A stretch of 41,090 nt of DNA from a virus: IMG/VR virus record IMGVR_UViG_3300035698_002650, positions 1 through 41,090 of that record; one strand, written 5' to 3'. This document shows positions 11,893 to 37,910 of this stretch, piece after piece. How positions within the stretch are numbered: position 1 is the first letter of the stretch; every line of letters begins with the position of its first letter. A model generated the notes under the pieces. The model did no database searches and was not told the DNA's origin. It saw nothing but the letters and a program-made list of their open reading frames with translations. The position numbers and the translations under genes were made by a program.

Positions 11893-11899
11893 CAAGTGT

Positions 11900-12136: not shown

Positions 12137-12147
12137 TAATGAATCGG

Positions 12148-12233
12148 GAAGTATATATTTGTTATAAATAATTTGTTATAATTTAATCATGAAGTATATA
12201 TTTGTTATAAATAATTTGTTATAATTTAATCAT
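12148..12233 (+). repeat. 43-bp perfect tandem duplication
   Basis: Two exact 43-bp copies lie head to tail (12148-12190 and 12191-12233), with the first four bases of a third. Each holds TATATATTTG, TATAAATA and TGTTATAATTTAATCATG, so both a promoter-like box and an ATG are duplicated. Only the second ATG (12232) opens the long gene; the first (12189) opens an 11-codon frame that ends within copy two. Confidence 0.95.
12217..12225 (+). promoter_or_regulatory. Extended -10 promoter candidate
   Basis: TGTTATAAT is a perfect extended -10 (TGnTATAAT) at 12217-12225, and the same box occurs 43 bases upstream at 12174-12182. Transcription would be expected to begin about seven bases after the box, on or next to the A of the ATG at 12232, giving a leaderless or nearly leaderless mRNA. 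No good -35 is visible at 17 bases, as is normal for extended -10 promoters. This is sequence evidence only. Confidence 0.55.
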
Positions 12234-16097: not shown

Positions 16098-16311
16098 AGA
16101 AGCAGAAATAAAAAAGATCGCAAGTGAATTGGGTGTGACTAACATACAAATGGAAATAGACAGGAAAGTTAACGAGTTGTCTGGTAAGACTGTGGGTGAA
16201 ATACAGGAATGGGTGAGAAAGGTTACAGGCGACGGTGAAAAGGCTATATTCTTGGACTTGTGTGTTGCAGTCGCGTTAGGTAATTTAATCAATCCGAACA
16301 ATGTCAAATGA
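16087..16311 (+). CDS. Hypothetical small helical protein
   Basis: A 74-residue frame starts at GTG 16087, placed nine bases after GAGGAG (16075-16080), a true Shine-Dalgarno. It is helical, with a hydrophobic stretch IFLDLCVAVALGNLI near the C-terminus too short and polar to be a confident membrane segment. No family recognised. It overlaps both neighbours, ending the glycosyltransferase block. Confidence 0.5.
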   Translation: MSSKEAEIKKIASELGVTNIQMEIDRKVNELSGKTVGEIQEWVRKVTGDGEKAIFLDLCVAVALGNLINPNNVK

Positions 16312-16570: not shown

Positions 16571-16697
16571 GGACTACGATTTAAAGGTAGGCGACATAGT
16601 GCATTACGATAGGTTCACAGAGCAGATTATAGGAGAGGGTGACACACCAGAAATACTTATTAACGAAGGTAATTTAATAGCTATAGAAAATGAGTGA
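16434..16697 (+). CDS. GroES-like co-chaperonin (Cpn10)
   Basis: The 87-residue protein has the full Cpn10 beta-barrel pattern: VIGRRVLIKPI (strand 1), a short mobile-loop region KGKLIVPEQIKKRP, KGRILKVGQ, then LKVGDIVHYDRFTEQII, and the last strand NEGNLIAIE. It would cap a GroEL chamber during folding of phage proteins, probably the capsid, as known for T4 gp31. No GroEL is encoded in the window, so it would have to work with host GroEL. The mobile loop lacks the usual GGI-hydrophobic tripeptide and instead has KLIVP, so docking needs testing. Confidence 0.8.
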   Translation: MKVKKVIGRRVLIKPIREEYKGKLIVPEQIKKRPRKGRILKVGQLRDYDLKVGDIVHYDRFTEQIIGEGDTPEILINEGNLIAIENE

Positions 16698-18202: not shown

Positions 18203-18535
18203 ATGGCAGCAGCTAAAGGTAATCAGAATGCAAAAGGGAATAAAGGGGGTGGCAGAAAGAGCGCTTACCAAGAGGCCCAAGACGCTTCATTTTTGTGGGA
18301 CATATTTCTTAACGAGTATTCAGTAGAAGATATAAAGGACAAGCTTAAAAAGGGAAAGTTTAGTGTAAAGGACGTATGGATAAGTAAGTTAGTAGGAGGC
18401 AATGAAAGAATGTTGGGTATGTTGGTACAAAAGCTATTTCCTGACAAGATATTAGAGGAGAGTAATGTAAAAGGGAAGATTGAAGTAATTTACAATGACC
18501 CTACAAAGGATGGCCCAAGTAAAACTGACGAATGA
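18203..18535 (+). CDS. Terminase small subunit-like protein
   Basis: The 110-residue protein starts with AKGNQNAKGNKGGGRKSAYQE, a Gly/Lys/Asn-rich DNA-binding leader typical of phage small terminase subunits and related proteins. It continues with helices (SVEDIKDKLKKG, SVKDVWISKLVGGNERML, MLVQKLFPDKIL). It would recognise the packaging site and hand DNA to the large subunit encoded immediately downstream, with a 41-base overlap. The assignment rests on the N-terminal pattern and position. Confidence 0.7.
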   Translation: MAAAKGNQNAKGNKGGGRKSAYQEAQDASFLWDIFLNEYSVEDIKDKLKKGKFSVKDVWISKLVGGNERMLGMLVQKLFPDKILEESNVKGKIEVIYNDPTKDGPSKTDE

Positions 18536-19733
18536 CTTCATAGAATTAAGAAGGGCATTTAACAATCCTGCTAAGTTTGTATCTATAAGCGCTGGAAGGC
18601 GTTCAGGAAAGACGTTTGAAGCTTTTGACTGGCTGTATAAGTCATTAATGGTAGGCGGCGCTAGACATGCGCTGTGGGTCGATACACGGCAATCTAATAT
18701 TGATAAGTATATAGAGCGATATTGTATGGTGAGGTTAGAACCCATATGGAAAGACCAATGTAGGTATGATAGGCAGAAAAAGGTATTGCACATATTAGAC
18801 AAGTACATAGATTTTGGGTCGGCAGAGAAAGCAGAGAACTTAGAAGGGTTTCAATATGACAGGATACTGATTAACGAGGCTGGTATTGCTTTAAAGAGAC
18901 CGCAATTGTGGGATAATACCATACAACCTATGACTAAGGGTAAGGAAAACAAAACAAGGATTATAGGGACACCAAAAGGAAGAAACAAATTCTATTTACT
19001 TTACAGTATGGGGAACGAGGGACTCGAGGAGTACAAGAGTTTTACTTTTTCAGCGTATGAATCACCATTTTGGGAGAAGGATGAATTAGACAGGATTAAA
19101 GCACGAGTGCCTAGTGGTGTGTGGCAACAAGAATATATGGCACAATTCCTTGAGAACAATGCTGGAGTGTTCAAGGGGGTGAGAGAATGTGTAAAGGGAC
19201 ATGGTTTCATTAAAGAGGCTGAGGAAGGAAAGAGCTATGTAATCGGAGTGGACCTAGCAAAACATACGGACTTCACGGTAGTAATAGTTATTGAGACGGG
19301 TACTAATAATGTAGTGTTTATGGACAGGTTTAATCAAATAGACTGGGTGTTCCAAAAGAAAAAGATTATAGATATATGGGAAAGGTTTAATAAGTGCCCG
19401 ATGTTACTAGACAGTACTGGGGTTGGCGATCCTGTGTTTGACGATTTGTATAGAGTAATGGATTATAAAATAGAAGGTTATAAAATAACATCCCCGAGCA
19501 AAAAGGAATTGATAGAAGGTCTGAGTTTGGCTATTCAAAGGGGTGACATAGGTTACCCTGGTAATGGGGTATTAATTAGTGAGTTAGAAGCGTACGAATA
19601 CCAGATAAGTAAATCTGGCGTAGTGAAATACAATGCCCCTGAAGGACTACATGATGATTGTGTTATAGCACTAGCTTTGGCGTGGCAATTGGCTAAACCA
19701 GACAATGAAGAGGCCGAGATATACGTTTTCTAG
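18495..19733 (+). CDS. Terminase large subunit
   Basis: The 412-residue packaging motor protein has Walker A SAGRRSGKT (about residues 32-40), a Walker B-like YDRILINEAG (with the catalytic Glu) and a coupling motif RIIGTPKGR. A C-terminal RNase H-like nuclease follows, starting VIGVDLAKHTDFTVVIVIE and ending GLHDDCVIALALAW, where the Asp residues hold the metal ions. The start could be ATG 18495 or ATG 18510. The length and motif order are normal for the family. It cuts and translocates phage DNA into the capsid through the portal. Confidence 0.9.
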   Translation: MTLQRMAQVKLTNDFIELRRAFNNPAKFVSISAGRRSGKTFEAFDWLYKSLMVGGARHALWVDTRQSNIDKYIERYCMVRLEPIWKDQCRYDRQKKVLHILDKYIDFGSAEKAENLEGFQYDRILINEAGIALKRPQLWDNTIQPMTKGKENKTRIIGTPKGRNKFYLLYSMGNEGLEEYKSFTFSAYESPFWEKDELDRIKARVPSGVWQQEYMAQFLENNAGVFKGVRECVKGHGFIKEAEEGKSYVIGVDLAKHTDFTVVIVIETGTNNVVFMDRFNQIDWVFQKKKIIDIWERFNKCPMLLDSTGVGDPVFDDLYRVMDYKIEGYKITSPSKKELIEGLSLAIQRGDIGYPGNGVLISELEAYEYQISKSGVVKYNAPEGLHDDCVIALALAWQLAKPDNEEAEIYVF

Positions 19734-19864: not shown

Positions 19865-19893
19865 TTGACATATTATGCATAACATAGTATAAT
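19865..19893 (+). promoter_or_regulatory. Consensus sigma-70 promoter
   Basis: TTGACA (19865-19870), exactly 17 bases, then TATAAT (19888-19893). Both hexamers are perfect and the spacing is optimal. The predicted start is near 19900, about 24 bases before the first ATG at 19924. It drives the small-protein/phosphoesterase block and may continue into RtcB. Confidence 0.85.
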
Positions 19894-20659: not shown

Positions 20660-20660
20660 G

Positions 20661-20789
20661 ATGAACTTTGAGGGGCATCAGAATGGTAGTATATGGGCAT
20701 TTATTATAGTTATAGCTATTGTGGTGATAGCTTGGGCCGTAGAGAAAATCTTCGGTGTTTGTATTCTTGGTTCGTGTATTATAAATTAA
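20661..20789 (+). CDS. Tiny single-pass membrane protein
   Basis: The 42-residue frame starts at ATG 20661, one base after the previous TGA. A strongly hydrophobic helix (WAFIIVIAIVVIAWAV, about residues 12-27) is followed by EKIFGVCILGSCIIN with two cysteines. Orientation is probably N-out. Tight packing and good composition suggest a real gene; function unknown. Confidence 0.5.
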   Translation: MNFEGHQNGSIWAFIIVIAIVVIAWAVEKIFGVCILGSCIIN

Positions 20790-20801
20790 TCAAAGAGTCT
20801 A

Positions 20802-20882
20802 GTGAAAAGAATAGATGTAGGTGAGAACGTAGTGTTGATTGTTATAGTCGTTATGTTCTTTTTAGCAGTGATTTTAATTTAG
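20802..20882 (+). CDS. Tiny hydrophobic protein
   Basis: The 26-residue frame at GTG 20802 reads MKRIDVGENVVLIVIVVMFFLAVILI, a basic N-terminus followed by a near-complete membrane helix. It ends 10 bases before the phosphoesterase gene. Length makes this tentative, but it matches the adjacent tiny membrane protein in style and fills an otherwise empty gap. Confidence 0.4.
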   Translation: MKRIDVGENVVLIVIVVMFFLAVILI

Positions 20883-20892
20883 TAATTGGTGA

Positions 20893-21396: not shown

Positions 21397-21516
21397 TTAG
21401 ACATGAGTACAGAGTGTTAAGTAAGGTTTTACATATGTAGAGGGAAGATATCCTTTAGTGGACCCACACGTGGGGGCAACCGTAAGAATGGGAAAACAGA
21501 GTTTAAGGAGGGTAAA

Positions 21517-21669
21517 GTGTATATAGATTACACGGATGGTGTCGAGTTGTCTCGGGTAACAACGAAATTATTAGAGGGTGGAATTATTAAGAAGGAGGAT
21601 AGTAAGAAGTTTGTACCGAAGGGAAGGAGTAAGTCCGATAAGCCTAAGAAGTTTATGATAGATAGATAA
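21517..21669 (+). CDS. Hypothetical small basic protein, start uncertain
   Basis: The frame ending at TAA 21667-21669 is open from 21421. GTG 21517 follows GGAGGG with good spacing and gives 50 residues (YIDYTDGVELSRVTTKLL, then a Lys-rich tail). The upstream codons (YICRGKISF, TEFKEGK) also look like coding, yet no ATG, GTG or TTG precedes them except ATG 21403, which is cut off by TAA at 21418. The gene may be longer with an unusual start, or damaged. A CCCAC-AC-GTGGG inverted repeat sits at 21463-21474. Confidence 0.45.
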   Translation: MYIDYTDGVELSRVTTKLLEGGIIKKEDSKKFVPKGRSKSDKPKKFMIDR

Positions 21670-21685
21670 TTTTAGAGTTAATATC

Positions 21686-22870
21686 ATGCAAATAGTAGAA
21701 ACAGAGAAGATGCCAATAAAGATGTGGTTAGACGATATAGAGGATGGTGCAATGGAGCAAATCAAGAACATTGCAAACCTTCCTTTTGTGTATAAATGGG
21801 TCGCAGTCATGCCGGATTCGCACCAAGGTTACGGAATGCCGATAGGTGGTGTTGTGGCACTGGATAATGTGATCAGTCCGAATATGGTTGGTGTGGACAT
21901 CGGGTGTGGAATGTGTGCTATAAATACTGGTTTGAAAGAAATTACACAAGATCAGTTAAAGGAGGTTATGGGCGGGGTTAGAGAGGTAGTACCTGTTGGG
22001 TTTAACAAACATCAGAAAGGGCAGGACGTAGGATTAATGCCTAGCACTATGTATCCTGGGTTGCCTAGCTGTGGTGTGGTGGTTAAAATGGAATATGAAA
22101 ACGCAATGAGATCCTTGGGGACTTTGGGTGGAGGTAATCATTTTATAGAGATACAAAAAAGTGAGTTTGGTCATATTTGGATAATGATTCACTCAGGAAG
22201 TAGGAATCTTGGTAAAAAGGTGTGTGATTATTACAATGATATCGCTAAAGACTTGAATAAAAAGTACTATACTCCAAACGTTATAGAGCAAGACTTGGCA
22301 TTTTTACCGGTAGAGACAGAAATAGGACAAGCATATATTAAGGAAATGCAGTATTGTGTAGACTTTGCATTCTCTAATAGGAAATTAATGATGGAAAGAG
22401 TTGTTGCTGTTTTCAATCAGGTTATGGATGGTGAAGTTGGGACTTCTGAGATGATTAATATTGCACATAATTATGCAAGTTTAGAGAATCATATGGGTAA
22501 AAACGTTTGGGTGCATAGAAAGGGTGCCACGAGCGCTAAGAAGGGTGAGATGGGGATCATTCCTGGTTCTATGGGTACCAAGTCATATATTGTAGAAGGT
22601 CTTGGTAGTCGTGAGTCATTCATGAGTTGTTCACACGGGGCAGGGAGGAAAATGAGTAGGTCTCAAGCGAGTAGAGAATTGACGTTAGAAGAGGCAGATA
22701 AGGCAATGGATGGGATTATCTATGGTAGGTGGGGTAAGACCCGAAAGGGAGGACTAGACTTTGGTGAAGCACCTCAGGCATACAAGGACATTTCCAAGGT
22801 AATGGAAAATCAGAAAGATCTTGTTAAGCCGATTGTAGAACTCACCCCGTTGGCTGTGATCAAAGGTTAA
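21686..22870 (+). CDS. rtcB: RtcB-type RNA ligase
   Basis: The 394-residue protein has the diagnostic RtcB motifs: VMPDSHQGYGMPIGGV (His46), NMVGVDIGCGMC with the metal ligands Asp71 and Cys74, LGTLGGGNHFIEI near residues 146-156, MIHSGSRNLG, and SCSHGAGRKMSRSQA (about 315-330) with the histidine that is guanylylated. RtcB joins RNA 2',3'-cyclic-phosphate or 3'-phosphate ends to 5'-OH ends with GTP and Mn2+. In a phage it could repair tRNAs cut by host anticodon nucleases. Neighbours are a phosphoesterase upstream and a second promoter just downstream. Length is close to E. coli RtcB. Confidence 0.93.
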   Translation: MQIVETEKMPIKMWLDDIEDGAMEQIKNIANLPFVYKWVAVMPDSHQGYGMPIGGVVALDNVISPNMVGVDIGCGMCAINTGLKEITQDQLKEVMGGVREVVPVGFNKHQKGQDVGLMPSTMYPGLPSCGVVVKMEYENAMRSLGTLGGGNHFIEIQKSEFGHIWIMIHSGSRNLGKKVCDYYNDIAKDLNKKYYTPNVIEQDLAFLPVETEIGQAYIKEMQYCVDFAFSNRKLMMERVVAVFNQVMDGEVGTSEMINIAHNYASLENHMGKNVWVHRKGATSAKKGEMGIIPGSMGTKSYIVEGLGSRESFMSCSHGAGRKMSRSQASRELTLEEADKAMDGIIYGRWGKTRKGGLDFGEAPQAYKDISKVMENQKDLVKPIVELTPLAVIKG

Positions 22871-22890: not shown

Positions 22891-22919
22891 TTGACATATT
22901 ATTATATATACTGTATAAT
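22891..22919 (+). promoter_or_regulatory. Consensus sigma-70 promoter
   Basis: TTGACA (22891-22896), 17 bases, TATAAT (22914-22919): a second exact match to the consensus, as at 19865. The leader after both promoters contains similar TTAAATAAATTTTAGC / TATAAATAATTTAAGC elements. It drives the gene at 22967 and presumably the phosphatase fragment and the structured RNA region downstream. Confidence 0.85.
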
Positions 22920-22966: not shown

Positions 22967-23305
22967 ATGTGGGAGTTTATACTATTTGTTATGTTAGGAA
23001 GTAAGGTAAGTCTTTCTGGAGTCCAAGGTGGTGTACCTAAGCAGGTCGCACAGACTCCTGTAGTGGCTCTAAACGAGTGGGATACTGATTGGGGGGATAA
23101 ATACTTACCTGCGCCAGAAGAAACGCCTGTAGAGCTCATTGAGGGGTCTGAGGATTGGAATTCAGAATGGGGAGACGAGTATTTACCAGACGTAAGTGAG
23201 ACGCCTGTAGAGACTGACGAAAATTGTCCGTTAGGGATAGTGGTTTGGTCATGGGACGGTGAGTTAGACGTAGAGTCTGATCCTATTGAGTGTATGTATA
23301 AGTAA
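22967..23305 (+). CDS. Acidic protein with duplicated Trp motif
   Basis: In this 112-residue protein, residues 1-18 (MWEFILFVMLGSKVSLSG) may be a weak signal or membrane anchor. Two copies of the pattern W-D/N-x-D/E-WGD-x-YLP...ETPVE follow (about residues 43-61 and 67-86: EWDTDWGDKYLP and DWNSEWGDEYLP), then a tail NCPLGIVVWSWDGELD. The protein is very acidic, suggesting binding to a basic or aromatic partner. It is the first gene after a perfect promoter. No family recognised. Confidence 0.6.
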   Translation: MWEFILFVMLGSKVSLSGVQGGVPKQVAQTPVVALNEWDTDWGDKYLPAPEETPVELIEGSEDWNSEWGDEYLPDVSETPVETDENCPLGIVVWSWDGELDVESDPIECMYK

Positions 23306-23322: not shown

Positions 23323-23529
23323 ATGGGTAAATATGAAAAAATATGGGTAATTAGTGATATTCACGGTTGTTACAGGCCATTGGAAGAGCTTTTAAAGAAA
23401 CTCCCGATTAAAAAGGAGCACCAAGTTGTCTTTTTGGGTGATTATATTGACCGTGGGCCAGATTCAAAGAGAGTTATAGAGAATATTAGGAAATTGTTGT
23501 CTGGGATCGGAATATTTCTTAATAGGTAA
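23323..23529 (+). pseudogene. Truncated PPP-type metallophosphatase
   Basis: The 68-residue frame matches only the first part of Ser/Thr phosphatase/ApaH-PrpE-type enzymes: VISDIHGCYRPLEELL (Asp12, His14) and VFLGDYIDRGPDS (Asp40). The protein ends with GIGIFLNR where the GNHE motif should follow; the remaining two thirds of the family is missing. No downstream piece with GNHE was found before the next gene. It is probably a remnant, although the first metal-binding half might retain a structural role. The structured region begins directly after its stop. Confidence 0.7.
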
Positions 23530-23541
23530 GGTTAATATTTA

Positions 23542-23859
23542 ATAGTAGCCGGTTGCTGACCAAGCTCGCCGGCTACTATCAGGTATTAAGGTACTTGAGT
23601 GGCTTGGAAGGGGATATGTTTAAGGGTCACATCCTTTTAGGCGTGTCGAAAGACAAGCGGAGATCCTGAGCTGGGAACCTCATTGACGTTCGCACTGGCT
23701 TAAAGATACAGGTGGTTCGAACACCTTAAAAAGAGTTGCAATTTAGTTAGGTAGAGCTCGAGAGCTTTTGTTTAAAGCTCGACACTTGAAAATAATGTTT
23801 GTGTTCTCTCTGTAGCGGAGAGCCGTATTCCTATTTCTGATAACCTAGCTGTATAGGTT
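23542..23859 (+). ncRNA. Probable structured RNA, unidentified
   Basis: The 368 bases from 23530 to 23897 hold no convincing reading frame but at least seven stem-loops in order: an 11-bp perfect stem 23542-23552/23569-23579; an 11-position stem with one mismatch 23608-23618/23628-23638; TGTC-GAAA-GACA at 23644-23655 with a GNRA tetraloop; AGGTG/CACCT at 23710-23726 around a GTTCGAA loop; GAGCTTT/AAAGCTC at 23762-23780; CTCTCTG/CGGAGAG at 23806-23822; and AACCTA/TAGGTT at 23842-23859. GTTCG at 23688-23692 can pair with CGAAC at 23718-23722. No tRNA, tmRNA, RNase P or intron signature fits. Strand is inferred from the upstream promoter. Confidence 0.6.
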
Positions 23860-23897
23860 TATGTATTAGGTAAGTATATAAAATAATACTAAGTAAG

Positions 23898-24420: not shown

Positions 24421-27400
24421 ATGGCGAAGAAAAGCGACGTTAAGTTGGATATTGTTGAATTCCCACAACCACCAGCACAAAAAGCAGAAGATTACTTAAA
24501 AGCATACAGAGGTTGGGTTTACTCAGCAGTGAGTTTAATTGCTAAGAACGCTTCCACAGTTCCTATAAAACTGTACAAACGTACTGGTACTGGTGCTACA
24601 GAGACTATAGAACAAGTTTACGACCACCCAGCATTAACGACATTAGAATTCGTCAACGACATGCAGACTGGACAACAGTTAGCAGAAATAACATTCACTT
24701 ATTTAGACTTGGTTGGTGAAGCCGTTTGGGTATTGCTCAAAAATGGTGACACGATTACAAGTATTATTCCCTTAAGGCCTGATTGGATAGACGTGGTGCC
24801 TGACGGCAGTGGCGGTGTTAAGGAATACATTTTCAGACCTAGTGGTGGTGGTGACACCGTGCGTTTAGACGCGGACTGTGTCATATTTTTCAGGAATTTT
24901 GACCCAACCAACCTTTACAGAGGGCTTGGTGTGGTACGTGCAATGGCTACGGATATAGATATAGACGACTTTTCAGACGCATACAACAGGAACTTCTTTT
25001 TTAACAGTGCAATGCCGTCTATGATTATATCTACCGACAAGAAACTTGGTAAAGAGGGCGCTAAAAGGTTCATACAAAGCTTACAACAAGGCCACGGTGG
25101 CACTAGAAACGCCCACAAAGTAGCATTCATGGAGAAAGGTAGTGTTAAAGTAGACTTATTGTCTGCTAACATGCAGGAATTAGACTTTCAACAGAGTAAA
25201 GAGCGATTAATGGAAAAGATTTTGGGCGGGTTTCACTTGAGTAAGGCTAATATAGGACTTACTGACAACGTGAACCTTGCTAATGCTCGGGCTCAAGAAA
25301 CTCGGTTCATGAAACTGGTTGTTAAACCAAGACTTGTGAGTTACGTAGGGTTTTTAAACGAGTTTTACTTGCCAAAGTTTGAAGGTACGGAAGATATGTT
25401 CTTCAATTTTGAAGACCCAGTACCAGAAGACACAAAGGCTAAACTGGAAATGGTTAGAGTTATGTCTCAAGAAGGCATACTGACTACTAACGAAATACGA
25501 GCAGAATATGGGCGTGAACCACTTGATGGTGGGGACGCTATTTACAAACAAGTGAATTTAGTACCAACTATTGGTGACGTGGACTCTAGTATAGATCCAA
25601 GTGAGGATGTGGATGAAAATGACGATGATGACAAAGATGATAACAAGGATGATGATAAGGACGACAAAGGTTTTAAGGGATTGTTAAAGAGAGTATTTAA
25701 AAAGAAGGTTAAGCAACAGACAATTATGGTTGTTATGAGAAAGAAGCCGGTAGACGCTAATAGGAAAAAGACTAGAGAGGATTTCAAGTTTGGTGCGCCA
25801 GTGCGACCAAGGAACCCTAAGCAAGTGCAATTAGAAGGGCTTTACAAGGCCGTTTCGCACGAACTTAAGGTTGCAGTAACAGAAATGATGAGAACGGCCA
25901 GAAAGGACCCAGAAGACGTGATAAACGAACAGGCTAAGGATATGTACTGGAAGGAGTTTGTGACCCGTACAGACATACAAGAGGACGCCATGCAGGTTGT
26001 TTTGAGACAGTTGGCTAACCAGCAAGAGAAAGCGGTTATAGCTAATGCAAAGAAACTTGCTAGTAGTATTAACAGCGGTACGCAGAACAGGCCACAGGCG
26101 TTTGCGTTTAGCATGAGAAGTGAGAACAAGAAGTGGAAAGAGCAAATTAGACCGTTCTTGGCAAAGATTATTAAAAAGAGGGGTAACCAAGTACTTACAG
26201 AATTGAGTGAAAAGAGTGTGAAGGAAGTGGACTTGTTTGATATGGCAGCAGATGAGGTGGAGGAGTACTTGGCTAAACTGGGAGTTGAATTTGTCAGTCA
26301 AGTTAATGAGTATACTAGAGAACAATTACTAAGAACGATTAGCGAGGGGTTAAGGGAGAATGAAACCGTACAAGACATTATTAACAGGATTACTGCCGTG
26401 TACGCAGGACTTAGAGGTTACCGTGCAGAGAGGATAGCAAGGACTCAGGTTTTACAGTCTAATAACTTTGCTACCTTAGAGTCTTACGGTCAGTCTGGTG
26501 TTGTAGCCGCTAAAGAGTGGCTGACTGCTGGCGACGAGAAGGTTAGAGAGGCTCATGTAGCTGCAGACGGGCAAGTGGTGTTAATAAACGACTCATTTGA
26601 CGTGGGTGGTGAGAAATTAATGTATCCACAAGACCCAAATGGTAGTCCAGAAAATATCATCCAATGCCGTTGTACTATGTTACCTGTAACAACAGCACAA
26701 TTCAGTGCGCAGGAGGAAATGAGGAGGAAGGAGAAACAACAAACTATAAGGGAGGTTTCTAGTAAGGTTTTGGACAGGGTTATTGACGAAGAATTGAAAT
26801 TTGGGGTTGAGAACGTTGAAAAACTTAAAAGCAGGGAGCAGGAATTGATGCAGAAACAGAACGAAGTTGTTAAAGAGACCGTGGACAGAGTGGAAGAAGT
26901 CATTGAGAGAGGCAAAAAGGTTAAGGAAAGAGAGGCAAAGAATGAAGAAGTTGAGTTAAAGGCTATTGTAGAGGGTGAAATAGAGGACAAACAGGATGAA
27001 GCAGACCAGATTGACGGAATTATTAAGGAAAAGCGCAAGGATTTGGACGGTATTGGTGAGGAAAGAGAGGCTATACTAGACAAAGCTCACACGGACGCAG
27101 AAGTTGTTAGAGATAGAAACAACAAGGAGTTGGTAAAGAAGCTTGCTAAGGGTGATAAGTCGCTCAAGGACATGAAAGAGAAGTTTAAAAAGAAGGTTGA
27201 GGAGAAAAAGGAAGAGGTTAAGAAGGTGGACGGAGTACTTAAGGAGAAAGAAAGAGACCTTGAGAGAATAGACAAGAAAAAAGAGGCTGCTTTGGACGAG
27301 GTTTTGACTGAAGCTGACAAATTAAGAGAGAAAAAAGCAAAGGGACTTGAGTTAGAGGTTGCAGAGGGTGAGGAATCACTCAAGGCAATAGACAACAAGT

Positions 27401-27600
27401 TCAAAGGCAAGAGGGAAAAGGTCAAGGAATTGGAAGCGCAGGAGAAGGGTTTAAAGGCGTCTATTAAAGAAGCACAGGCAAAGGTGACTGATATGATAGA
27501 GAAGGGCAAATCTAAAGCTAAAACCTACTTAGAGGGCGCTAGAAAGAAGATTAAATTATTAAGAGACAAGATTGATGACGCAAGTAACAAAGGAGATTAA
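24421..27600 (+). CDS. Portal protein fused to MuF-type head protein and coiled coil
   Basis: This is a 1059-residue fusion. Residues 1-385 are an HK97-type portal: VYSAVSLIAKNASTVPIKLYKR, the wing and NLYRGLGVVRAM region, and KERLMEKILGGFHLSKANIGL, ending in EIRAEYGREPLDGGD. An Asp/Lys-rich linker (about 397-425) leads to residues 450-750, the Mu gpF/SPP1 gp7-like minor head domain: RAERIARTQVLQSNN, ESYGQSGVVAAKEWLTAGD, REAHVAADGQ, and PENIIQCRCTMLPV. Residues 760-1059 are a long charged coiled coil with repeating KEKxxDLxxI units. The portal forms the DNA entry ring. Normally portal and MuF are separate genes, so this is an unusual triple fusion. Confidence 0.85.
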   Translation: MAKKSDVKLDIVEFPQPPAQKAEDYLKAYRGWVYSAVSLIAKNASTVPIKLYKRTGTGATETIEQVYDHPALTTLEFVNDMQTGQQLAEITFTYLDLVGEAVWVLLKNGDTITSIIPLRPDWIDVVPDGSGGVKEYIFRPSGGGDTVRLDADCVIFFRNFDPTNLYRGLGVVRAMATDIDIDDFSDAYNRNFFFNSAMPSMIISTDKKLGKEGAKRFIQSLQQGHGGTRNAHKVAFMEKGSVKVDLLSANMQELDFQQSKERLMEKILGGFHLSKANIGLTDNVNLANARAQETRFMKLVVKPRLVSYVGFLNEFYLPKFEGTEDMFFNFEDPVPEDTKAKLEMVRVMSQEGILTTNEIRAEYGREPLDGGDAIYKQVNLVPTIGDVDSSIDPSEDVDENDDDDKDDNKDDDKDDKGFKGLLKRVFKKKVKQQTIMVVMRKKPVDANRKKTREDFKFGAPVRPRNPKQVQLEGLYKAVSHELKVAVTEMMRTARKDPEDVINEQAKDMYWKEFVTRTDIQEDAMQVVLRQLANQQEKAVIANAKKLASSINSGTQNRPQAFAFSMRSENKKWKEQIRPFLAKIIKKRGNQVLTELSEKSVKEVDLFDMAADEVEEYLAKLGVEFVSQVNEYTREQLLRTISEGLRENETVQDIINRITAVYAGLRGYRAERIARTQVLQSNNFATLESYGQSGVVAAKEWLTAGDEKVREAHVAADGQVVLINDSFDVGGEKLMYPQDPNGSPENIIQCRCTMLPVTTAQFSAQEEMRRKEKQQTIREVSSKVLDRVIDEELKFGVENVEKLKSREQELMQKQNEVVKETVDRVEEVIERGKKVKEREAKNEEVELKAIVEGEIEDKQDEADQIDGIIKEKRKDLDGIGEEREAILDKAHTDAEVVRDRNNKELVKKLAKGDKSLKDMKEKFKKKVEEKKEEVKKVDGVLKEKERDLERIDKKKEAALDEVLTEADKLREKKAKGLELEVAEGEESLKAIDNKFKGKREKVKELEAQEKGLKASIKEAQAKVTDMIEKGKSKAKTYLEGARKKIKLLRDKIDDASNKGD

Positions 27601-27988
27601 AGAGAAGGTTCTCCGAGAAGTAAGAAAGGACGAGCTTGAGACAGACAAAGAGTTAGAGGAATTGCTTTCTAGGAAGTCTAAAATGTTTGATTTACTCAAG
27701 AGGATTATTGTGGCGGTTAAGAAAATCAAGTTAGTGCCACAGGAGGAAATGAATGTGTGGGTGCGTAACCCGCAAAAGGCTCAGAAAGAGATTAAAGTGA
27801 GTAATTTAAAAGACATTGAGCCTGTAAAAGAAGTGAAGGTGAGTAACCTTTCCGAGGTGAAGTACCCAGAGAGTGTGAAAGTAGTTGGTATGGAGGAATT
27901 GATTAAGACTGTAACTGAGCAAAACGATTTGATTAAGAAAATGAATGCAGAATTAAGGAACGTTAAGAATAAACTTGATAAGAAGTAG
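27575..27988 (+). CDS. Hypothetical virion-region protein with KVSNL repeat
   Basis: The 137-residue protein from ATG 27575 overlaps the portal fusion's end by 26 bases. The N-terminal 45 residues are a charged helix continuing the style of the upstream coiled coil. The middle carries the repeat KEIKVSNLKDIEPVKEVKVSNLSEV (two KVSNL units), then SVKVVGMEELIK. The C-terminus is a coiled coil (DLIKKMNAELRNVKNKLDKK). The repeat is shared with the next protein, so the two likely contact each other or a common partner in the virion. Confidence 0.55.
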   Translation: MTQVTKEIKEKVLREVRKDELETDKELEELLSRKSKMFDLLKRIIVAVKKIKLVPQEEMNVWVRNPQKAQKEIKVSNLKDIEPVKEVKVSNLSEVKYPESVKVVGMEELIKTVTEQNDLIKKMNAELRNVKNKLDKK

Positions 27989-28933
27989 ATGGTTGACGAC
28001 ATAAAAAAGGAATTAGACGAGTTCATTGGGGACGACACAGTCCAAGCCCTTAAGGGTGTTATTAAAACAATCAAGGAAAACGGTGTAGACAATGTTGCCT
28101 TGAATGAGCTTGTTAAATATGAGGAACGGCTAGTCAAGGACAATATAGATGTTAAGAGTTTGTTAATAGAATTGGTCGAGTGGGCGGACAAGTTTAAAGT
28201 GGACGTGCCTAAAGAGTTTGAAGTCACGGTTAAAAACCAATTAGAATTGCCAGAATACCCTAAAGAAATGAAGGTGTCTAATTTAAAGGACATTAAAATA
28301 CCAGAAGTAAGAATCCCTAAGCCTGTAGACACGGTAGGGATTAAGGAAAGTAAATGGTTAGGGAATTCGTTAGGTACTATTGTGAAAACGATTGGTAGTG
28401 TAACAAAACAAGTTACTGAAAGCTTGTTTAGGGCTAGAATTGTAGGTAATAGTAGTCCTGCACAAGCCATTGCGGTGCGAATGGTTACTAAGGACGGTAA
28501 GAAGTTCACGGAAGGTGGTGGTGGGACGATTATAACTGGAAATAGAAATCCTGGGTTGGTACCGTTTAAGACTGCGGCAAGGGTTAGTAAAGAGGCACTA
28601 ATAGACGACGATAGGCATTTACAAGTAGACGTATTAACAGCACCACAACCCTCTTCTGCAACGAATTTTGAGGGTGGGCCAGTTACGGTTGGGACTGCGG
28701 CGGTAGAAATAACATTTACTGGTGTAACTCAGTCTATACAAATAGAATCAGATGTGGATAATACTGGGTATATTTACATAGGTAAGAGCAATGTAACAAA
28801 CGCTGGTGCTAATGCTATGTCAAAGTTAGAACCCGGGGCATCAATAGCTATGAGCCTAAATGACGCTAGTGCGGCTGTTTATGCAGTGAGTGACACAGCT
28901 GGGCAAACTATTTATAAATTGGCAACAATATAA
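27989..28933 (+). CDS. Hypothetical virion protein, KVSNL repeat and beta C-terminus
   Basis: In this 314-residue protein, residues 1-75 are helical. Residues 76-120 contain PKEMKVSNLKDIKIPEVRIPKPVDTVGI, sharing the eight-residue KVSNLKDI with the preceding protein. A helix follows (SKWLGNSLGTIVKTIGSVTKQVTESLF), then a beta-rich end (about 220-314: TVGTAAVEITFTGVTQSIQIES, GYIYIGKSNVTNAGANAM, LEPGASIAMSL). The last part resembles the C-terminal domain found in phage structural proteins adjacent to fibers. A head or neck decoration or fiber-attachment role is likely from position; not proven. Confidence 0.6.
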   Translation: MVDDIKKELDEFIGDDTVQALKGVIKTIKENGVDNVALNELVKYEERLVKDNIDVKSLLIELVEWADKFKVDVPKEFEVTVKNQLELPEYPKEMKVSNLKDIKIPEVRIPKPVDTVGIKESKWLGNSLGTIVKTIGSVTKQVTESLFRARIVGNSSPAQAIAVRMVTKDGKKFTEGGGGTIITGNRNPGLVPFKTAARVSKEALIDDDRHLQVDVLTAPQPSSATNFEGGPVTVGTAAVEITFTGVTQSIQIESDVDNTGYIYIGKSNVTNAGANAMSKLEPGASIAMSLNDASAAVYAVSDTAGQTIYKLATI

Positions 28934-31305
28934 TGATACGAAAAGAACACTCCTCGACATATAAAAACTTCATACAGCTTAATACTAGCTACGCCGGGCT
29001 TACTCCTGAGGGTAGAAACAATTGGAATACTGACGAGGGAGTACCAGAATGGGGATTGGGTGGTGGTAATGTTGTGTGGCAGGGACCACTTGAAGATTTA
29101 GTAAAAGTAGTTAATAAAACGGGTTCAGATTTGGTCAATGGTAGGGTTGTATATATTAACGGGGCGCAAGGTAATAGAGCAACCGCAGCTTATGCAGATA
29201 ACACGGACACAGACACTATTTTCGTAGCCGGTATTCTTACAGAAACCATAGCTAACAACGGAAACGGGTATGTTGCTACGTCTGGCAGAATTCGAGATTT
29301 GAATACAACAGGCTCGTTAGTCGGTGAGACCTGGGCTGATGGACAGAACTTGTATTTATCAACTAGTGGTAATTTGACCAATGTTCACCCTTCAAACCCA
29401 GCTCATGCAGTAATTATAGTGTGTTCTGTAGAGCGAGCACATGCAACTGAAGGTGTGCTTCTATTAACTACTGTTTATTCTTTTACTTTAGGAAATAACT
29501 ACAACGGAACTTTAAGGCAATCAATTATAAACAAGAGTACAGGCAATGCAGCGGGGCCTAGTTTTACAGTAGTTAATGATCAGGGGTATAGGGCTTCACT
29601 TAGTATTTTTGGTGACAGTCATGCCACACTACCTAATATTGCGGGATTGTACAATGAAGGCTATGGAGAAACCGCTTATGTAACCGATGGTAATAAAGAC
29701 CATGTTTGGCATAACGACCCAACGGACTCGCACGATTTTAGTGCGTTAAGCTATGAAACAATGAGGTTGTCTGTTACTGGGGATTTAACTAATCCGGGTT
29801 ACACTTCAAATAAAAACTTCACAGACTCGTCTCATTACACTGGGTTCCCAAACAGAGCAGACACTTCTCTTAGTTGGGACGATGGAACTTACACATTAAC
29901 ACTAATAGCTTCGGCGGACGATATTTGGATTAATGGGGTGGCTTATGAAATCGACACATTAACTAAGCAATTATCAGTAGCTCAAGAAGCGGCTACCAGT
30001 ATGTATTGGTTTTGGATAACTGCTCCTGGCGGAGTACCACAATTAAATTGTAGCGATACATTCCCTGGGTTTGACGTTTGTTTGACTGCGGAAATATATT
30101 GGAACACTACAACATCGGAGGGCCCTTTAGTCGATGAAAGACATTGGTTTGGTAGAGACCATTGGAATCATGAGTATTTACATGAAACGTTTGGTGCTAG
30201 GTATGCTGAAGGACTTGCAGGAACTTTTGATAACACAAGTTTGACTATAGAGGCAGGTGAGTTTTATGACGAAGATATTGAACACGAAACGGTGCAAGAA
30301 ACTACAGCTAAAGTCTTTTATCACAATGGTGATGCTGATTGGGCATGGGATGTACTGAGTACTCCATATAAAGTAGTTAATCCAGGTGTAGATGATACGC
30401 TTTACTACAACAATGGAAATGCTTTGGCAACTGTAAATAAGAATAGACATACATGCTCATGGGTTTATATCTCTGGTGATGAAGATAATTCTGTTCATAT
30501 TTATATAGATGATGCTCAATATACAAACAAAGCATCTGCTAGAGCAGCTACACCACCACCAAGAGGATCCTTAACAAGTCCAGAAGACAAATTTATTTAT
30601 AAAATTATATATAAAAACAAAGGTGGAACGCCAACTTATATTGAAGACGACGACTTTAGGGTGTCTGCGGAATCCCCTAGCGGTGTAACTACTGACCATG
30701 GTTCTTTAGCTGGTCTTACAGACGACGACCATGACCAGTACGCTTTATTAGCTGGTAGGGCTGGTGGTCAGACACTAATAGGTGGTACAGACTCAGGGGA
30801 CGATTTAACATTGCAAAGCACGAGTAACGCTACTAAAGGGAGTATATTTCTTGGAGTGAATTCGGTTTATGACGAGGTTAACGACAGGTTAGGTATTAAT
30901 ACACTTGCCCCAGAAGCGGCTTTAGAAGTGAAAACCCCAACTACTACGTTGAGGAACATTATTATCCGTAGGATAGATTCACAGACGGCGGATTGTTTAG
31001 AAGTCCAGACCGAAGCAGACGTAGGATTGTTTACAATAGACAAATCTGGTTATGTGGTTATTGGTGACGGTGGTGCAGACGGACTTTTGAGGCTTAGAAC
31101 AAGTTCAGGTTTTGGTAAACAAGCTCTTTCTATAGACCAGAATGACGCAGACAAAGCTTTTATAGATTTTCAGGGTACGAGTGCAGCGAGTGTGGCCAAT
31201 AACATAACTACTTGGACTACTGGCAACAGTATACAAGGGTTCATTAGGCAGGAGGTAAACGGTGCAGTAGTTTGGATGCCTTACTACGACGCACCAACAA
31301 GTTAA
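28933..31305 (+). CDS. Fiber-like virion protein
   Basis: The 790-residue protein is beta-rich and Gly/Thr/Asn-rich. A recognisable fiber segment begins near residue 595: DHGSLAGLTDDDHDQYALLAGRAGGQTLIGGTDSGDDLTLQSTSN, followed by a beta repeat region RLGINTLAPEAALEVKTP. That stretch is common in phage tail or head fibers before the receptor-binding tip. The first third (VVNKTGSDLVNGRVVYINGAQGN) looks like a beta-sandwich base domain. Its place between portal and capsid genes rather than after the tape measure suggests a head fiber or a displaced receptor-binding protein. Starts on the stop of the previous gene. Confidence 0.75.
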   Translation: MIRKEHSSTYKNFIQLNTSYAGLTPEGRNNWNTDEGVPEWGLGGGNVVWQGPLEDLVKVVNKTGSDLVNGRVVYINGAQGNRATAAYADNTDTDTIFVAGILTETIANNGNGYVATSGRIRDLNTTGSLVGETWADGQNLYLSTSGNLTNVHPSNPAHAVIIVCSVERAHATEGVLLLTTVYSFTLGNNYNGTLRQSIINKSTGNAAGPSFTVVNDQGYRASLSIFGDSHATLPNIAGLYNEGYGETAYVTDGNKDHVWHNDPTDSHDFSALSYETMRLSVTGDLTNPGYTSNKNFTDSSHYTGFPNRADTSLSWDDGTYTLTLIASADDIWINGVAYEIDTLTKQLSVAQEAATSMYWFWITAPGGVPQLNCSDTFPGFDVCLTAEIYWNTTTSEGPLVDERHWFGRDHWNHEYLHETFGARYAEGLAGTFDNTSLTIEAGEFYDEDIEHETVQETTAKVFYHNGDADWAWDVLSTPYKVVNPGVDDTLYYNNGNALATVNKNRHTCSWVYISGDEDNSVHIYIDDAQYTNKASARAATPPPRGSLTSPEDKFIYKIIYKNKGGTPTYIEDDDFRVSAESPSGVTTDHGSLAGLTDDDHDQYALLAGRAGGQTLIGGTDSGDDLTLQSTSNATKGSIFLGVNSVYDEVNDRLGINTLAPEAALEVKTPTTTLRNIIIRRIDSQTADCLEVQTEADVGLFTIDKSGYVVIGDGGADGLLRLRTSSGFGKQALSIDQNDADKAFIDFQGTSAASVANNITTWTTGNSIQGFIRQEVNGAVVWMPYYDAPTS

Positions 31306-31321
31306 ATTTATTATTAGTAAA

Positions 31322-31585
31322 ATGGCAATAGACATAATAGGGCACTTAAATACAGAGAGCACTCTGACAGCACAAGAAAAGGTTCGTATGTTGGGCGACT
31401 TTTGTACAAGTCATGGGTACCTAGAAGAGATTTCAGAAGATGGGGATGACGTAGTGGAGAACCCAGTCAGTAAGAAGGAGTTTGCAAACAGGGTGATCAT
31501 AGAGTACATTAAGAGGAAGGTAGAAAAGGAGAGAAGAAAAGTTGTAAATGCTGCGAACGTGATAGAGGAATTAATTTTAGAGTAG
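31322..31585 (+). CDS. Hypothetical helical protein
   Basis: The 87-residue, mostly helical protein has an acidic middle (EEISEDGDDVVENP) and a basic helix at the end (RKVEKERRKVVNAANVIEEL). It has a TTAAATTTATTATTAG leader (31302-31317) and no Shine-Dalgarno. No family recognised. It lies between the fiber-like gene and the Com-like protein, in the virion block. Confidence 0.55.
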   Translation: MAIDIIGHLNTESTLTAQEKVRMLGDFCTSHGYLEEISEDGDDVVENPVSKKEFANRVIIEYIKRKVEKERRKVVNAANVIEELILE

Positions 31586-31591
31586 AGTAAA

Positions 31592-31759
31592 ATGAACGTA
31601 CAAGAAGCACTTCGGATCATAGACAAGGTTTTAGCTAACGTTAAAGGGACTAGGATGGACCATCAGAGACTGACAGAAGCAGTCCAAGTATTAAGGTTAG
31701 AAATAGCAAAAGCAAAGAAAATAGAAACAGAACTAAAGAAGGATATAAAAAAGAAATAA
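31592..31759 (+). CDS. Small helical protein
   Basis: The 55-residue frame at ATG 31592 reads VQEALRIIDKVLANVKG, a DHQRLTEAVQVLRLEI helix and a Lys-rich tail. It has the window's typical element TTAATTTTAG (31571-31580) 11 bases before its start. This supports it as a real gene even though it is short. No family recognised. Confidence 0.55.
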   Translation: MNVQEALRIIDKVLANVKGTRMDHQRLTEAVQVLRLEIAKAKKIETELKKDIKKK

Positions 31760-31775
31760 CATTAATAGGAATAGT

Positions 31776-31967
31776 ATGGTTGAATTTCGTTGTAAAAAAT
31801 GTAATAGGAAGTTGGGTATGGAGCACATCATAGAGGGTGAACTAGAAGTGCGGTGCCCAAGGTGTAAAACGTACAATACTCTGCGTTCTGGAAGGACAAG
31901 TAGAGTGATTGACACGTTCAGGCCGAAAATATATAATAAGGACGAGAAAATTAATAAGTCCCTTTGA
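31776..31967 (+). CDS. Com-like zinc-finger protein
   Basis: The 63-residue protein has FRCKKCNRKLG, then ELEVRCPRCKTYN: two CxxC pairs about 18 residues apart, with the order and spacing of phage Mu Com (a zinc-finger RNA-binding translational regulator). The basic C-terminal region (RSGRTSRVIDTFRPK) fits nucleic-acid contact. Com activates translation of the Mu mom DNA-modification gene; whether a target exists here is unknown, though the window does encode DNA modification functions. Located just before a terminator. Confidence 0.7.
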   Translation: MVEFRCKKCNRKLGMEHIIEGELEVRCPRCKTYNTLRSGRTSRVIDTFRPKIYNKDEKINKSL

Positions 31968-31990
31968 GGATGGTAAGTTGAGGCTTTTAT

Positions 31991-32044
31991 ATGCCCGAAT
32001 AGATTATGTCTAACGACGTAGTTTGTTCGGGCATTTTTGTTTTA
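31991..32044 (+). terminator. Rho-independent terminator between virion units
   Basis: ATGCCCGAA and TTCGGGCAT make a nine-base-pair stem (31991-31999/32026-32034) followed by TTTTTGTTTT. The 26-base loop holds a smaller stem (ATGTC/GACGT). It ends the portal-to-Com unit just before the protease gene. Confidence 0.75.
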
Positions 32045-32063
32045 AATTTAATATAAGATAAAG

Positions 32064-33392
32064 ATGTCAAAAATCAGTAAAGTAGACGCGGCAGAGGGTT
32101 ATCACAGATTATCCAATCCAAAATTCAAGGGGGAAGTAGAGAAATTAGAGCGTAAAACACTCGATTCTAAGCTTGGGATTAAGGGTTTATACTCTCCAGA
32201 GAAGAATATGATTAAGACTTATTTGTTTGACAATACCGCTTGGACGAAAGACGAGGCTAAAGAGTGGGTTGGAGAACATGCAGTACAAGGAAAGGGGCTA
32301 AAAACAACGGCTACTATTGTGAGAAGTAAGGAAGGTATGTTGGCCATTGCGTCAGACTCTTCTGAGGACAGGGACGGTGAAGTTATTGATATAGAGGGTT
32401 GGGACTTAAAAGCGTTTAAAAAGAATCCTGTATTACTTTGGTTGCACAATCGTGCACAAGGCCATAACGGGTTGCCAATCGGTAAAGCAGAGAAGATTGG
32501 TTATAAAATGATAGACGGTAAGAAACGACTAGTGTTTGAGCCAGTATTCGACAATTCTACAGCATTTAATAGGACTGTAAAGAAAATGGCAGAGGAATTA
32601 GGGTTGCTTAATACGTTTTCAGTAGGGTTTTTACCAAAGGAAATGGAAGGCAATAAATTCACGAAACAAATGTTACTCGAGATTAGTCTTGTTCCAGTGC
32701 CATCAAATAGTAACGCAGAATTCATTCAAAGAGCAAAGGACTTTGGTGTTACAAGAGAAGACGCTATTAAATTCGTAGAAATAAAAGCAGTCGTGCCTTA
32801 CAGAGCTTATGTACCAGCAGCAGAATCAAGAGGTTGGGACTCTGGTGCAGCAATCGGTGGTGTAAGAGGCTGGGCAGGAGGTCCAGACAAAGAAGAAATT
32901 GATTTTAACCAGTATAAAGAAGCATTTACATGGTATGACGTACAGGATGAAAAGAAATTCGGTGCGTACAAGCTTCCACACCACGAGGTGGTTGGAGACG
33001 AGTTAGTAACTAACTGGAAAGGTGTGGTATCTGCTATGGCTGCATTACTAGGCGCTAGAGGCGGTGTAGACGTACCAGAGGGCGATAGAAAGGGTATTTA
33101 CAACCACTTGGCTAAGCACTACAAGCAATTTGACAAAGTGTCGCCTGAATTCAAGTTAGTTGAAACACAAGAATTAAAGGACGTGTTTGAATATCTGGAC
33201 GAGGTGTCACAAAAGGAAGGAATGAAGGAATTGAGAAAGATTACTAATAAAACGTTAGCGGTTATTTGTAAGGTTAAAAAGGAGCAAGTAAAGGAAAAGG
33301 AAAAACTTAATACAATTGACAGCAAACTTACCAAAGCCCGAGTTATTAAATCACTTGGTGAGTATGTTAAAGGGAAGGAAACTTCCAAGTAG
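32064..33392 (+). CDS. HK97-type prohead protease with extra C-terminal domain
   Basis: The 442-residue protein's protease domain occupies about residues 80-245: AIASDSSEDRDGEVID, VLLWLHNR with the catalytic His (about residue 127), NTFSVGFLP with the catalytic Ser, and MLLEISLVPVPSNSNAEF. It matures the capsid by cleaving the scaffold or N-terminal arm. A C-terminal module (about 290-370: FGAYKLPHHEV, VSAMAALLGARGGVDVPEGDRKGIYNHLAKHYKQF) is known from phage proteases and related head proteins but is of unclear function. A basic helical tail ends the protein. Normal gene order places the capsid next. Confidence 0.85.
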   Translation: MSKISKVDAAEGYHRLSNPKFKGEVEKLERKTLDSKLGIKGLYSPEKNMIKTYLFDNTAWTKDEAKEWVGEHAVQGKGLKTTATIVRSKEGMLAIASDSSEDRDGEVIDIEGWDLKAFKKNPVLLWLHNRAQGHNGLPIGKAEKIGYKMIDGKKRLVFEPVFDNSTAFNRTVKKMAEELGLLNTFSVGFLPKEMEGNKFTKQMLLEISLVPVPSNSNAEFIQRAKDFGVTREDAIKFVEIKAVVPYRAYVPAAESRGWDSGAAIGGVRGWAGGPDKEEIDFNQYKEAFTWYDVQDEKKFGAYKLPHHEVVGDELVTNWKGVVSAMAALLGARGGVDVPEGDRKGIYNHLAKHYKQFDKVSPEFKLVETQELKDVFEYLDEVSQKEGMKELRKITNKTLAVICKVKKEQVKEKEKLNTIDSKLTKARVIKSLGEYVKGKETSK

Positions 33393-33418
33393 GTAATTAA
33401 TTTTTAGTTTTATTTATT

Positions 33419-34648
33419 ATGAAGGAGATAGACAAAAGTTTAATAGAAGAAATAGTAAAAGAGCAGTTAGAGGCTAAAGAGTCTGTTGAAGCAGAAAGTA
33501 AGTCGAAGGAAACTGTTGAGGAAAGTAAAGTTGAAGTTAATGTGCCAGCAGATGAGATCATGCAAGAAGTTGCAAAGAACATTGTTGACGCTATTAAAGG
33601 TCAGCTAGGCGGTGACTCTGAAGATGCAAAGTATCTTAAGGGACAACTTTATAGCCGCGAGGAAGGACTCAAAGCAGTGAAATACCCTTCGATGAAAGAG
33701 TTGAACAATCTGGACGACAATGAAAAGATTGCTGTTTACTTCAAAGCACTCTTCAGTAAGAACAAGACTGCAGAGGACAACGCGATACTTAAGGGGTTGT
33801 CAGAAGGTACTGCTGGAGACGGTGGTAACTTGGTTCCTGTTCCATTAAGAGCAGAGATCATTAGGTTAATGGGTGATAGGTCAGTTATGCGAGGACTCGC
33901 TACGATACTACCAATGACTTCACAGACATTGGAGATCCCAACATTGGCTAACAACGGTTACGCTAACTGGATTCCAGAGCGTGTAGTGAAAACAACTACA
34001 TCAGCTGAATTTGGAAAAGTTACATTGACTGCGCAAAAGTTGGTTGCAAGAATCTTAATTTCAGAAGAGCTTAATGACGACTCTATTGTCGCTTTGGTTC
34101 CATGGATTACTCAACAGTTTGCTGAGTATATTGCTACGGCAGAAGACAGAGCATTTTTCACTGGTACTGGTGTAAACCAACCACGAGGAATATCTATAGA
34201 GGCTATTACGCAACGTGCAACTGGTGGTGTGCTTGACTTTGATGAAGTGAATTATCTTTACCGATTAGTTCGTCAGTCAGTCAGAAACTCACCTAAAGCA
34301 GCATTTATTGCTCATGGAAGCGTTATTGCTAAACTTGAAAGAATCAAGGACACTGACGGTGGATATATTTGGAGACGTGGACTAGGTAGAACAGCAGGTC
34401 AAACTGAGGTGTTACCAGACACTATCTGGGGACGTCCTATCTATGAACAAAACGACTTGAGTCAAAGCGAACTCTATTTCGGTGATTGGAGTAAGTATTA
34501 TATTGGTGATCGTAAGAAACTATACATACGACAAACTGATACTACTGAAACGTCATGGACAGAAGACGCAATTGACATTAAGGCTGTTGAACGAGTGGAT
34601 GGAAGAGCAGGTTTGCTTGGAGCATTTGCTAAGTTGACAGGTATATAG
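33419..34648 (+). CDS. Major capsid protein, HK97 fold
   Basis: The 409-residue protein has an N-terminal 110-residue charged helical delta domain (EEIVKEQLEAKESVEAESKS) acting as built-in scaffold, expected to be removed by the protease. The mature part starts near KGLSEGTAGDGGNLVP and contains EIIRLMGDRSVMRGLATILP (E-loop region), PERVVKTTTSAEFGKVTL, LVARILISEELNDDS and WITQQFAEYIATAEDRAFFTGTGVNQPRGI. All are hallmarks of the HK97 family. It builds the icosahedral shell. The start at 33419 is supported by a TTAATTTTTAG element. Confidence 0.9.
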   Translation: MKEIDKSLIEEIVKEQLEAKESVEAESKSKETVEESKVEVNVPADEIMQEVAKNIVDAIKGQLGGDSEDAKYLKGQLYSREEGLKAVKYPSMKELNNLDDNEKIAVYFKALFSKNKTAEDNAILKGLSEGTAGDGGNLVPVPLRAEIIRLMGDRSVMRGLATILPMTSQTLEIPTLANNGYANWIPERVVKTTTSAEFGKVTLTAQKLVARILISEELNDDSIVALVPWITQQFAEYIATAEDRAFFTGTGVNQPRGISIEAITQRATGGVLDFDEVNYLYRLVRQSVRNSPKAAFIAHGSVIAKLERIKDTDGGYIWRRGLGRTAGQTEVLPDTIWGRPIYEQNDLSQSELYFGDWSKYYIGDRKKLYIRQTDTTETSWTEDAIDIKAVERVDGRAGLLGAFAKLTGI

Positions 34649-34658
34649 TTTTTTGAGG

Positions 34659-34689
34659 GCTGGGTACTAGTGAGGGCTTTGTACTCAGC
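34659..34689 (+). terminator. Stem-loop after the capsid gene, possible attenuator
   Basis: GCTGGGTAC and GTACTCAGC pair over nine bases (one G-U) around a 13-base loop. There is no clear U-run immediately after it, so it may stabilise the capsid mRNA end or partly attenuate transcription rather than terminate. Confidence 0.45.
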
Positions 34690-34721
34690 ACTTAATAAAT
34701 TAAATTTAGTCTTTTTAAGAC

Positions 34722-35000
34722 ATGAAGAGAGTAGAGTTTTTAAAGGATCATAGAGAGCATAAGGTAGGAGACATTGTAGAGGTGGCTAACAATGATTGTT
34801 TTTACCTAGAGCAAGAAGGTGTTGCTGTTTGGTTGGACAGGCCAGAGATAAAGGAAGTGAAGGTTGTGGAAAAGGCAGTTAAAAAGGTTGTAAAGAAAGT
34901 AGTAAACAAGGTAGCAAAGAAGGTAGTAAAGAAAACAGTACGTAAAAGAAAGACTAAGGAAATGACGGCAGGTAAAAAGAAAGGTTATAAAACTAAGTAA
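34722..35000 (+). CDS. Small phage protein, DUF7210-like, Lys-rich tail
   Basis: In this 92-residue protein, the N-terminal half (VEFLKDHREHKVGDIVEVANNDCFYLEQEGVAVWL) is a compact domain widely seen immediately after phage capsid genes. The C-terminal half repeats KKVV/KKVA units (KAVKKVVKKVVNKVAKKV) and ends with basic RKRKTK. This could bind packaged DNA or the inner capsid surface. The TTAAATTTAG element 13 bases upstream supports the start. Confidence 0.7.
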   Translation: MKRVEFLKDHREHKVGDIVEVANNDCFYLEQEGVAVWLDRPEIKEVKVVEKAVKKVVKKVVNKVAKKVVKKTVRKRKTKEMTAGKKKGYKTK

Positions 35001-35019
35001 GTTAATTAGGTACTGAAGA

Positions 35020-36881: not shown

Positions 36882-36908
36882 AGCAAGTTAAATTTTTAAA
36901 AAAGTAAA

Positions 36909-37889: not shown

Positions 37890-37910
37890 ATAAATTTATA
37901 GCCCTCAATT

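Follow-up and report, generated by a model that had tools for sequence, protein, structure and literature searches.

The window analysed here is a 41,090-bp IMG/VR virus record, a phage genome fragment, and the region of interest, a 368-nt segment at positions 23530-23897, is located within a loosely packed accessory block between the genes encoding the large terminase and the portal (Table 1). The block comprises genes for a metallophosphoesterase and the RNA ligase RtcB, a small ORF (22967-23305), a truncated phosphatase ORF and an RNase H-like gene. A preceding sequence-only reading had named RtcB, an N-terminal phosphatase fragment and RNase H as the genes around the segment, which is correct, and the perfect sigma-70 promoter that it placed upstream is real as well. 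The promoter is situated about 0.6 kb from the segment, with two ORFs intervening, and transcription through the segment likely starts at this predicted site. A second perfect TTGACA-17-TATAAT promoter is found at 19865-19893, likewise inside the accessory block, and the 33-nt surroundings of the two are 76% identical. The small ORF appears to encode an acidic protein with an internal repeat (EWDTDWGDKYLP / NSEWGDEYLP) and has no match in Pfam or PHROG. At most late-gene starts of this phage (e.g. 31322, 32064, 34722, 36909 and 37911), an AT-rich TTAAATTTA-like leader replaces the Shine-Dalgarno sequence; leaders resembling this type are also present in G010 (IMGVR_UViG_3300035698_025530), a 37.8-kb IMG/VR record.

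Table 1. Coordinates of the segment, its parts and the neighboring genes in the window
Feature	Position	Strand	Evidence
Large terminase	18495-19733		
RtcB RNA ligase	21686..22870	+	Pfam RtcB 3.1e-115
Consensus sigma-70-type promoter TTGACA-17-TATAAT (predicted)	22891..22919	+	12/12 match
Truncated NinI/PPP-like metallophosphatase ORF, 68 aa	23323..23529	+	Metallophos 1.2e-12, phrog_246 6.9e-20
Non-coding segment, origin of sequence unmatched	23500..23870	+	no coding signal, no protein-family/Rfam/DNA match
GC-rich part of the segment	23530..23730	.	GC 0.47
SL1, strong hairpin	23532..23589	+	MFE -30.5 kcal/mol
AT-rich leader of the RNase H-like gene	23871..23897	+	16-nt exact match to G010 late-gene leader
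RNase H-like gene, 139 aa	23898..24317	+	phrog_531 6.3e-9, Pfam RVT_3 2.1e-4
Portal gene	24421-27600		

Relatives of the phage were sought via the RNase H, portal, tape measure and capsid proteins, and only G010 was found. The part of the window from 24421 to 40739 is syntenic with this genome, with portal, protease, capsid and tail genes at 25-71% identity. In G010, 2 nt separate the terminase gene from the portal gene, and no counterpart of the accessory cassette is present there; given this adjacency in a syntenic genome, the cassette is probably an insertion. One end of G010 carries cell-like genes, including that for an NrdG-type activase with the best relatives in Candidatus Dojkabacteria (WS6; 58, 53, 50 and 49%). 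The synteny suggests that the window, too, may come from a phage of CPR bacteria, and kinship with G010 suggests the same host group, Dojkabacteria.

The phosphatase ORF immediately upstream of the segment is an incomplete gene, in which the Pfam and PHROG matches cover the N-terminal part only. An intact 234-aa phosphatase is encoded in G010 (contig L016) and is 84% identical over residues 2-59, that is, up to about position 23500, with 82% identity of the DNA up to 23484. The coding score of the truncated ORF collapses at about 23480, and the native coding sequence ends at about 23484-23502. The C-terminal two thirds are missing, the loss beginning where the non-coding DNA starts; no C-terminal part is present anywhere in the window, which is a fragment of a genome that could carry a second, intact copy elsewhere. 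The homology breaks off at the GNHE active-site motif or immediately before it, a site that is uninterrupted in the relatives checked among those scanned. The coincidence between the end of the phosphatase homology and the beginning of the segment points to a junction formed by recombination or decay in the inserted accessory block. The possibility that a short direct repeat, TAGGTAAG, located near the two ends marks a target-site duplication was given no weight, because the ORF would be truncated even without the interval.

The unmatched DNA begins where the phosphatase homology ends and runs up to the AT-rich leader of the following gene. When all six frames were scored with the codon frequencies of the fragment's own genes, the plus strand of the segment yielded values from -0.004 to 0.026 and the minus strand lower ones, compared with 0.32 +/- 0.10 (minimum 0.125) for true coding 360-nt windows; all six frames of 23530-23897 thus score at the level of wrong frames. 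Each frame contains 6-11 stops, and searches with all six translated frames gave no Pfam or PHROG match at E<=10. The earlier description of a stretch devoid of a credible reading frame in a packed genome therefore holds. Most other apparent gaps are coding-like in one frame, and 23530-23897 is the longest truly non-coding gap of the 41-kb fragment. Five gaps, at 11893-12231, 16098-16300, 16571-16689, 20660-20892 and 21397-21685, show a clear one-frame coding bias and are likely to be short genes that fall under the ORF cut-off or use other starts. In composition, the first 200 nt of the segment are more GC-rich (Table 1) than the whole fragment (0.40) and the other non-coding gaps (0.22-0.34), and only 3.9% of the equal-size windows of the fragment reach this content.

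Degraded coding sequence, which the sequence-only reading had listed as a possible refutation, was searched for specifically. An eroded C-terminal part of the phosphatase would fit the fragment of the right gene directly upstream, and the 368-nt gap is of the same order as the missing part (about 490 nt). None of its frames, however, retains similarity to the C-terminus of the intact protein, and, as described above, the segment has no codon bias, no family match and numerous stops, so that an origin from this or another gene is largely refuted and appears improbable.

The segment is non-coding and GC-enriched and is headed by a highly significant hairpin, SL1, located 3 nt past the stop codon that ends the truncated phosphatase ORF. 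SL1 comprises about 24 bp, folds with z -5.7 to -6.1 compared to shuffled sequence and is the second-strongest single hairpin in the window according to a single-hairpin scan. The 11-bp perfect stem reported previously is real and forms its core (23542-23552/23569-23579); no other perfect stem of at least 11 bp in the window encloses a loop shorter than 40 nt, although chance alone would yield about 0.33 stems of this kind. SL1 is not followed by a U-tract (the next bases are GGTACTTGAG) and is not among the results of the terminator scan, so it does not fit an intrinsic terminator; the missing U-tract makes mRNA protection, processing or attenuation likelier functions than intrinsic termination.

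The closest known counterparts of SL1 are the intercistronic and post-stop hairpins of phages, which act as terminators, RNase-processing sites or 3'-protecting elements. Like these, SL1 occupies an intergenic gap and forms a long imperfect stem right behind a stop codon; unlike these, it lacks the U-tract and is followed by about 280 nt more of untranslated DNA. At least two further hairpins of this type occur in the phage. The strongest hairpin of the fragment (31978-32045, about 20 bp with a T-rich run behind it) is intergenic, between a short ORF and the putative protease gene that lies upstream of the capsid gene, and looks like an intrinsic terminator. Another strong hairpin (34646-34702) directly follows the stop of the major capsid gene, and its place is conserved in G010 (30244-30298; L080 12244-12298), where the flanks TTGAGGG and CACTTA are retained and the stem bases differ but still pair. 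Strong post-stop hairpins are thus a recurring feature of this lineage, and SL1 fits this class.

Fold significance was assessed by comparing energies with those of dinucleotide shuffles. The whole segment yields z -3.9, but when the segment was split and refolded, the signal was found to stem from SL1 alone. The remaining 305 nt (23593-23897) yield z -1.2 to -1.5, within the range of random 305-nt windows elsewhere in the fragment (-3.1 to +1.3), and both the count of pairs with probability above 0.8 and the ensemble diversity match those of the shuffles (p about 0.5). Energies that beat the shuffles across the entire element, as expected of a structured ncRNA, were accordingly not observed. 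Of the seven ordered stem-loops described earlier, SL1 is significant, whereas the others are roughly what composition alone gives. The hairpin with the GNRA (GAAA) tetraloop is not the favored fold, because its 5' strand is taken up by a competing 10-bp helix (23613-23622/23638-23647) with a probability of 0.95, and the GTTCG/CGAAC long-range pairing is a five-base complement of the kind expected by chance. The folding statistics hence give the notion of a stem-loop-dense structured RNA no support beyond SL1.

Searches against known RNA families were negative. The Rfam search that had been suggested produced no match to the segment, either at the gathering cut-off or at E<=10, and ARAGORN with default settings detected no tRNA-like domain; at 40-50% thresholds it returned mutually inconsistent tRNA and tmRNA calls, which were taken as noise. 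As positive controls in the inferred host clade, the tmRNA model passed its cut-off for 25 of 30 Dojkabacteria genomes, and 8 of 83 genomes carried matches, strong and weak, to the group I model. These results and the descriptor search described below bear out the earlier judgement that tmRNA, tRNA and group I introns do not fit.

The segment resembles tmRNA and phage tRNA arrays in its length and its RNA-repair neighbors, and differs from them in the lack of a tRNA-like domain and of any covariance-model score. A tmRNA or a tRNA gene cluster in permuted or degenerate form, related to the RNA-repair genes, would be in line with the tRNAs that adjoin RtcB or the phosphatase in other phage records and with a tmRNA-like tag ending in FALA-stop, with the stop codon in a small loop, that ARAGORN lists under very permissive settings. 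This candidate was rejected, since the segment has no tRNA-like domain and no RF00023 score although the same model works in the host clade; within the sensitivity of the models it is refuted and hardly credible.

Group I introns inserted in phage genes offer another parallel, as the segment is likewise positioned where an enzyme gene encodes a conserved active-site motif, but it has no catalytic-core signature, downstream exon or Rfam score. Candidate intron elements (AAGATA, GATCCTGAGC and a possible U-G P1) were evaluated with a hand-written core descriptor (P7 with a G-C binding pair, P3 and J8/7), a rough tool that serves as a supporting test only; the score of 29.0 was no better than the shuffled maximum of 30.1 +/- 1.8, and the RF00028 covariance model gave no match at E<=10. 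Two collinear exons were not found, the C-terminal phosphatase being missing from the window. If a mobile intron or a small mobile element had inserted at or near the GNHE codons and later lost its 3' part together with the downstream exon, its remnant would account for the position of the homology break, a typical target of mobile introns, and for the structured 5' end and higher GC. This is nevertheless a doubtful explanation, given the lack of group I or II matches in Rfam at E<=10, when in the host clade even divergent group I matches of about 39 bits can be picked up, together with the descriptor result, the missing downstream exon and the uninterrupted site in the scanned phosphatase relatives.

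The previously suggested link with ligation or processing by RtcB is unsupported, its basis being proximity alone, and the contigs of close RtcB relatives (54-69% identity) contain no counterpart of the segment detectable by blastn. In other phage records, a tRNA-Pro gene is found just downstream of RtcB (L002 6865-6938 and L003 4114-4187) and a tRNA-Gln gene just downstream of the intact phosphatase (L016 4693-4764); the window itself has no tRNA.

The homologue search proposed along with the sequence-only reading came back empty. No homologue of the segment was found among 50,697 phage records, 72,556 plasmids, the 39 IMG/VR records behind the RtcB or phosphatase relatives, 380 Patescibacteria genomes or 86 Dojkabacteria genomes, where the best E-value (0.005 per genome) is about the chance level over 86. 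Exact patterns in IMG/VR gave two matches for the SL1 stem and one for a central core motif, which by our own estimate is the chance level; a hairpin in one contig (L137) shares the 11-bp SL1 stem and has nothing else in common with the segment.

Enrichment of GC in intergenic regions is a feature for picking candidates for structured ncRNAs (PMC8632094). The segment is a non-coding, GC-enriched region of this kind and, like the candidates of that study, is longer and more GC-rich than the other intergenic regions of its genome; such candidates become families only via homologues with conserved structure, and for the segment none was found. The composition and unusual length keep the structured-RNA reading alive, at low probability. 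A new structured ncRNA family of a probably Dojkabacteria-infecting phage, released from the operon transcript and with SL1 as its 5' domain, would agree with the longest non-coding gap, the lack of coding signal and the z of about -6 for SL1. We consider it unlikely, because 23593-23897 folds like shuffled sequence, with competing folds, and because the segment has no homologue in the collections searched and is absent from the matching place in G010, the sole relative. Even more tentatively, it may be a narrowly distributed structured RNA of a CPR phage in an RNA-repair cassette (RtcB, phosphatases and RNase H, between terminase and portal) and a possible substrate or decoy for anticodon nucleases of the host or for RtcB. 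To our knowledge, few structured RNAs from phages of CPR bacteria have been described; if real, this would be one of them, located beside an RNA ligase.

The interpretation that we favor, and to which we assign about an even chance, is an untranslated spacer that carries one ordinary mRNA hairpin and marks a junction created by recombination or decay. The spacer would lie inside the accessory operon between the terminase and portal genes and would have arisen where the phosphatase lost its C-terminal two thirds, through a presumed recombination or decay event; a polycistronic mRNA from the promoter at 22891 probably runs through it, and SL1, in the manner of the phage's other long intergenic hairpins, most likely acts in cis on this mRNA as a stem-loop for 3'-end protection, processing or attenuation. 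The spacer reading is favored by the intact G010 phosphatase, 84% identical up to the break, with no C-terminal exon in the window, by the adjacent terminase and portal genes of G010, by the confinement of fold significance to SL1, by the two further strong intergenic hairpins and by the lack of Rfam, protein or DNA homologues for the remainder. Against it stand the GC content of the first 200 nt, higher than in other non-coding gaps, and the fact that phages seldom retain 300 nt of functionless DNA, while the missing U-tract speaks against SL1 as a classic terminator within the spacer. As it stands, the case illustrates how a single strong hairpin can lend an entire intergenic segment the look of a structured RNA, and it provides an example of a phage phosphatase cut at an active-site motif that is intact in a relative.
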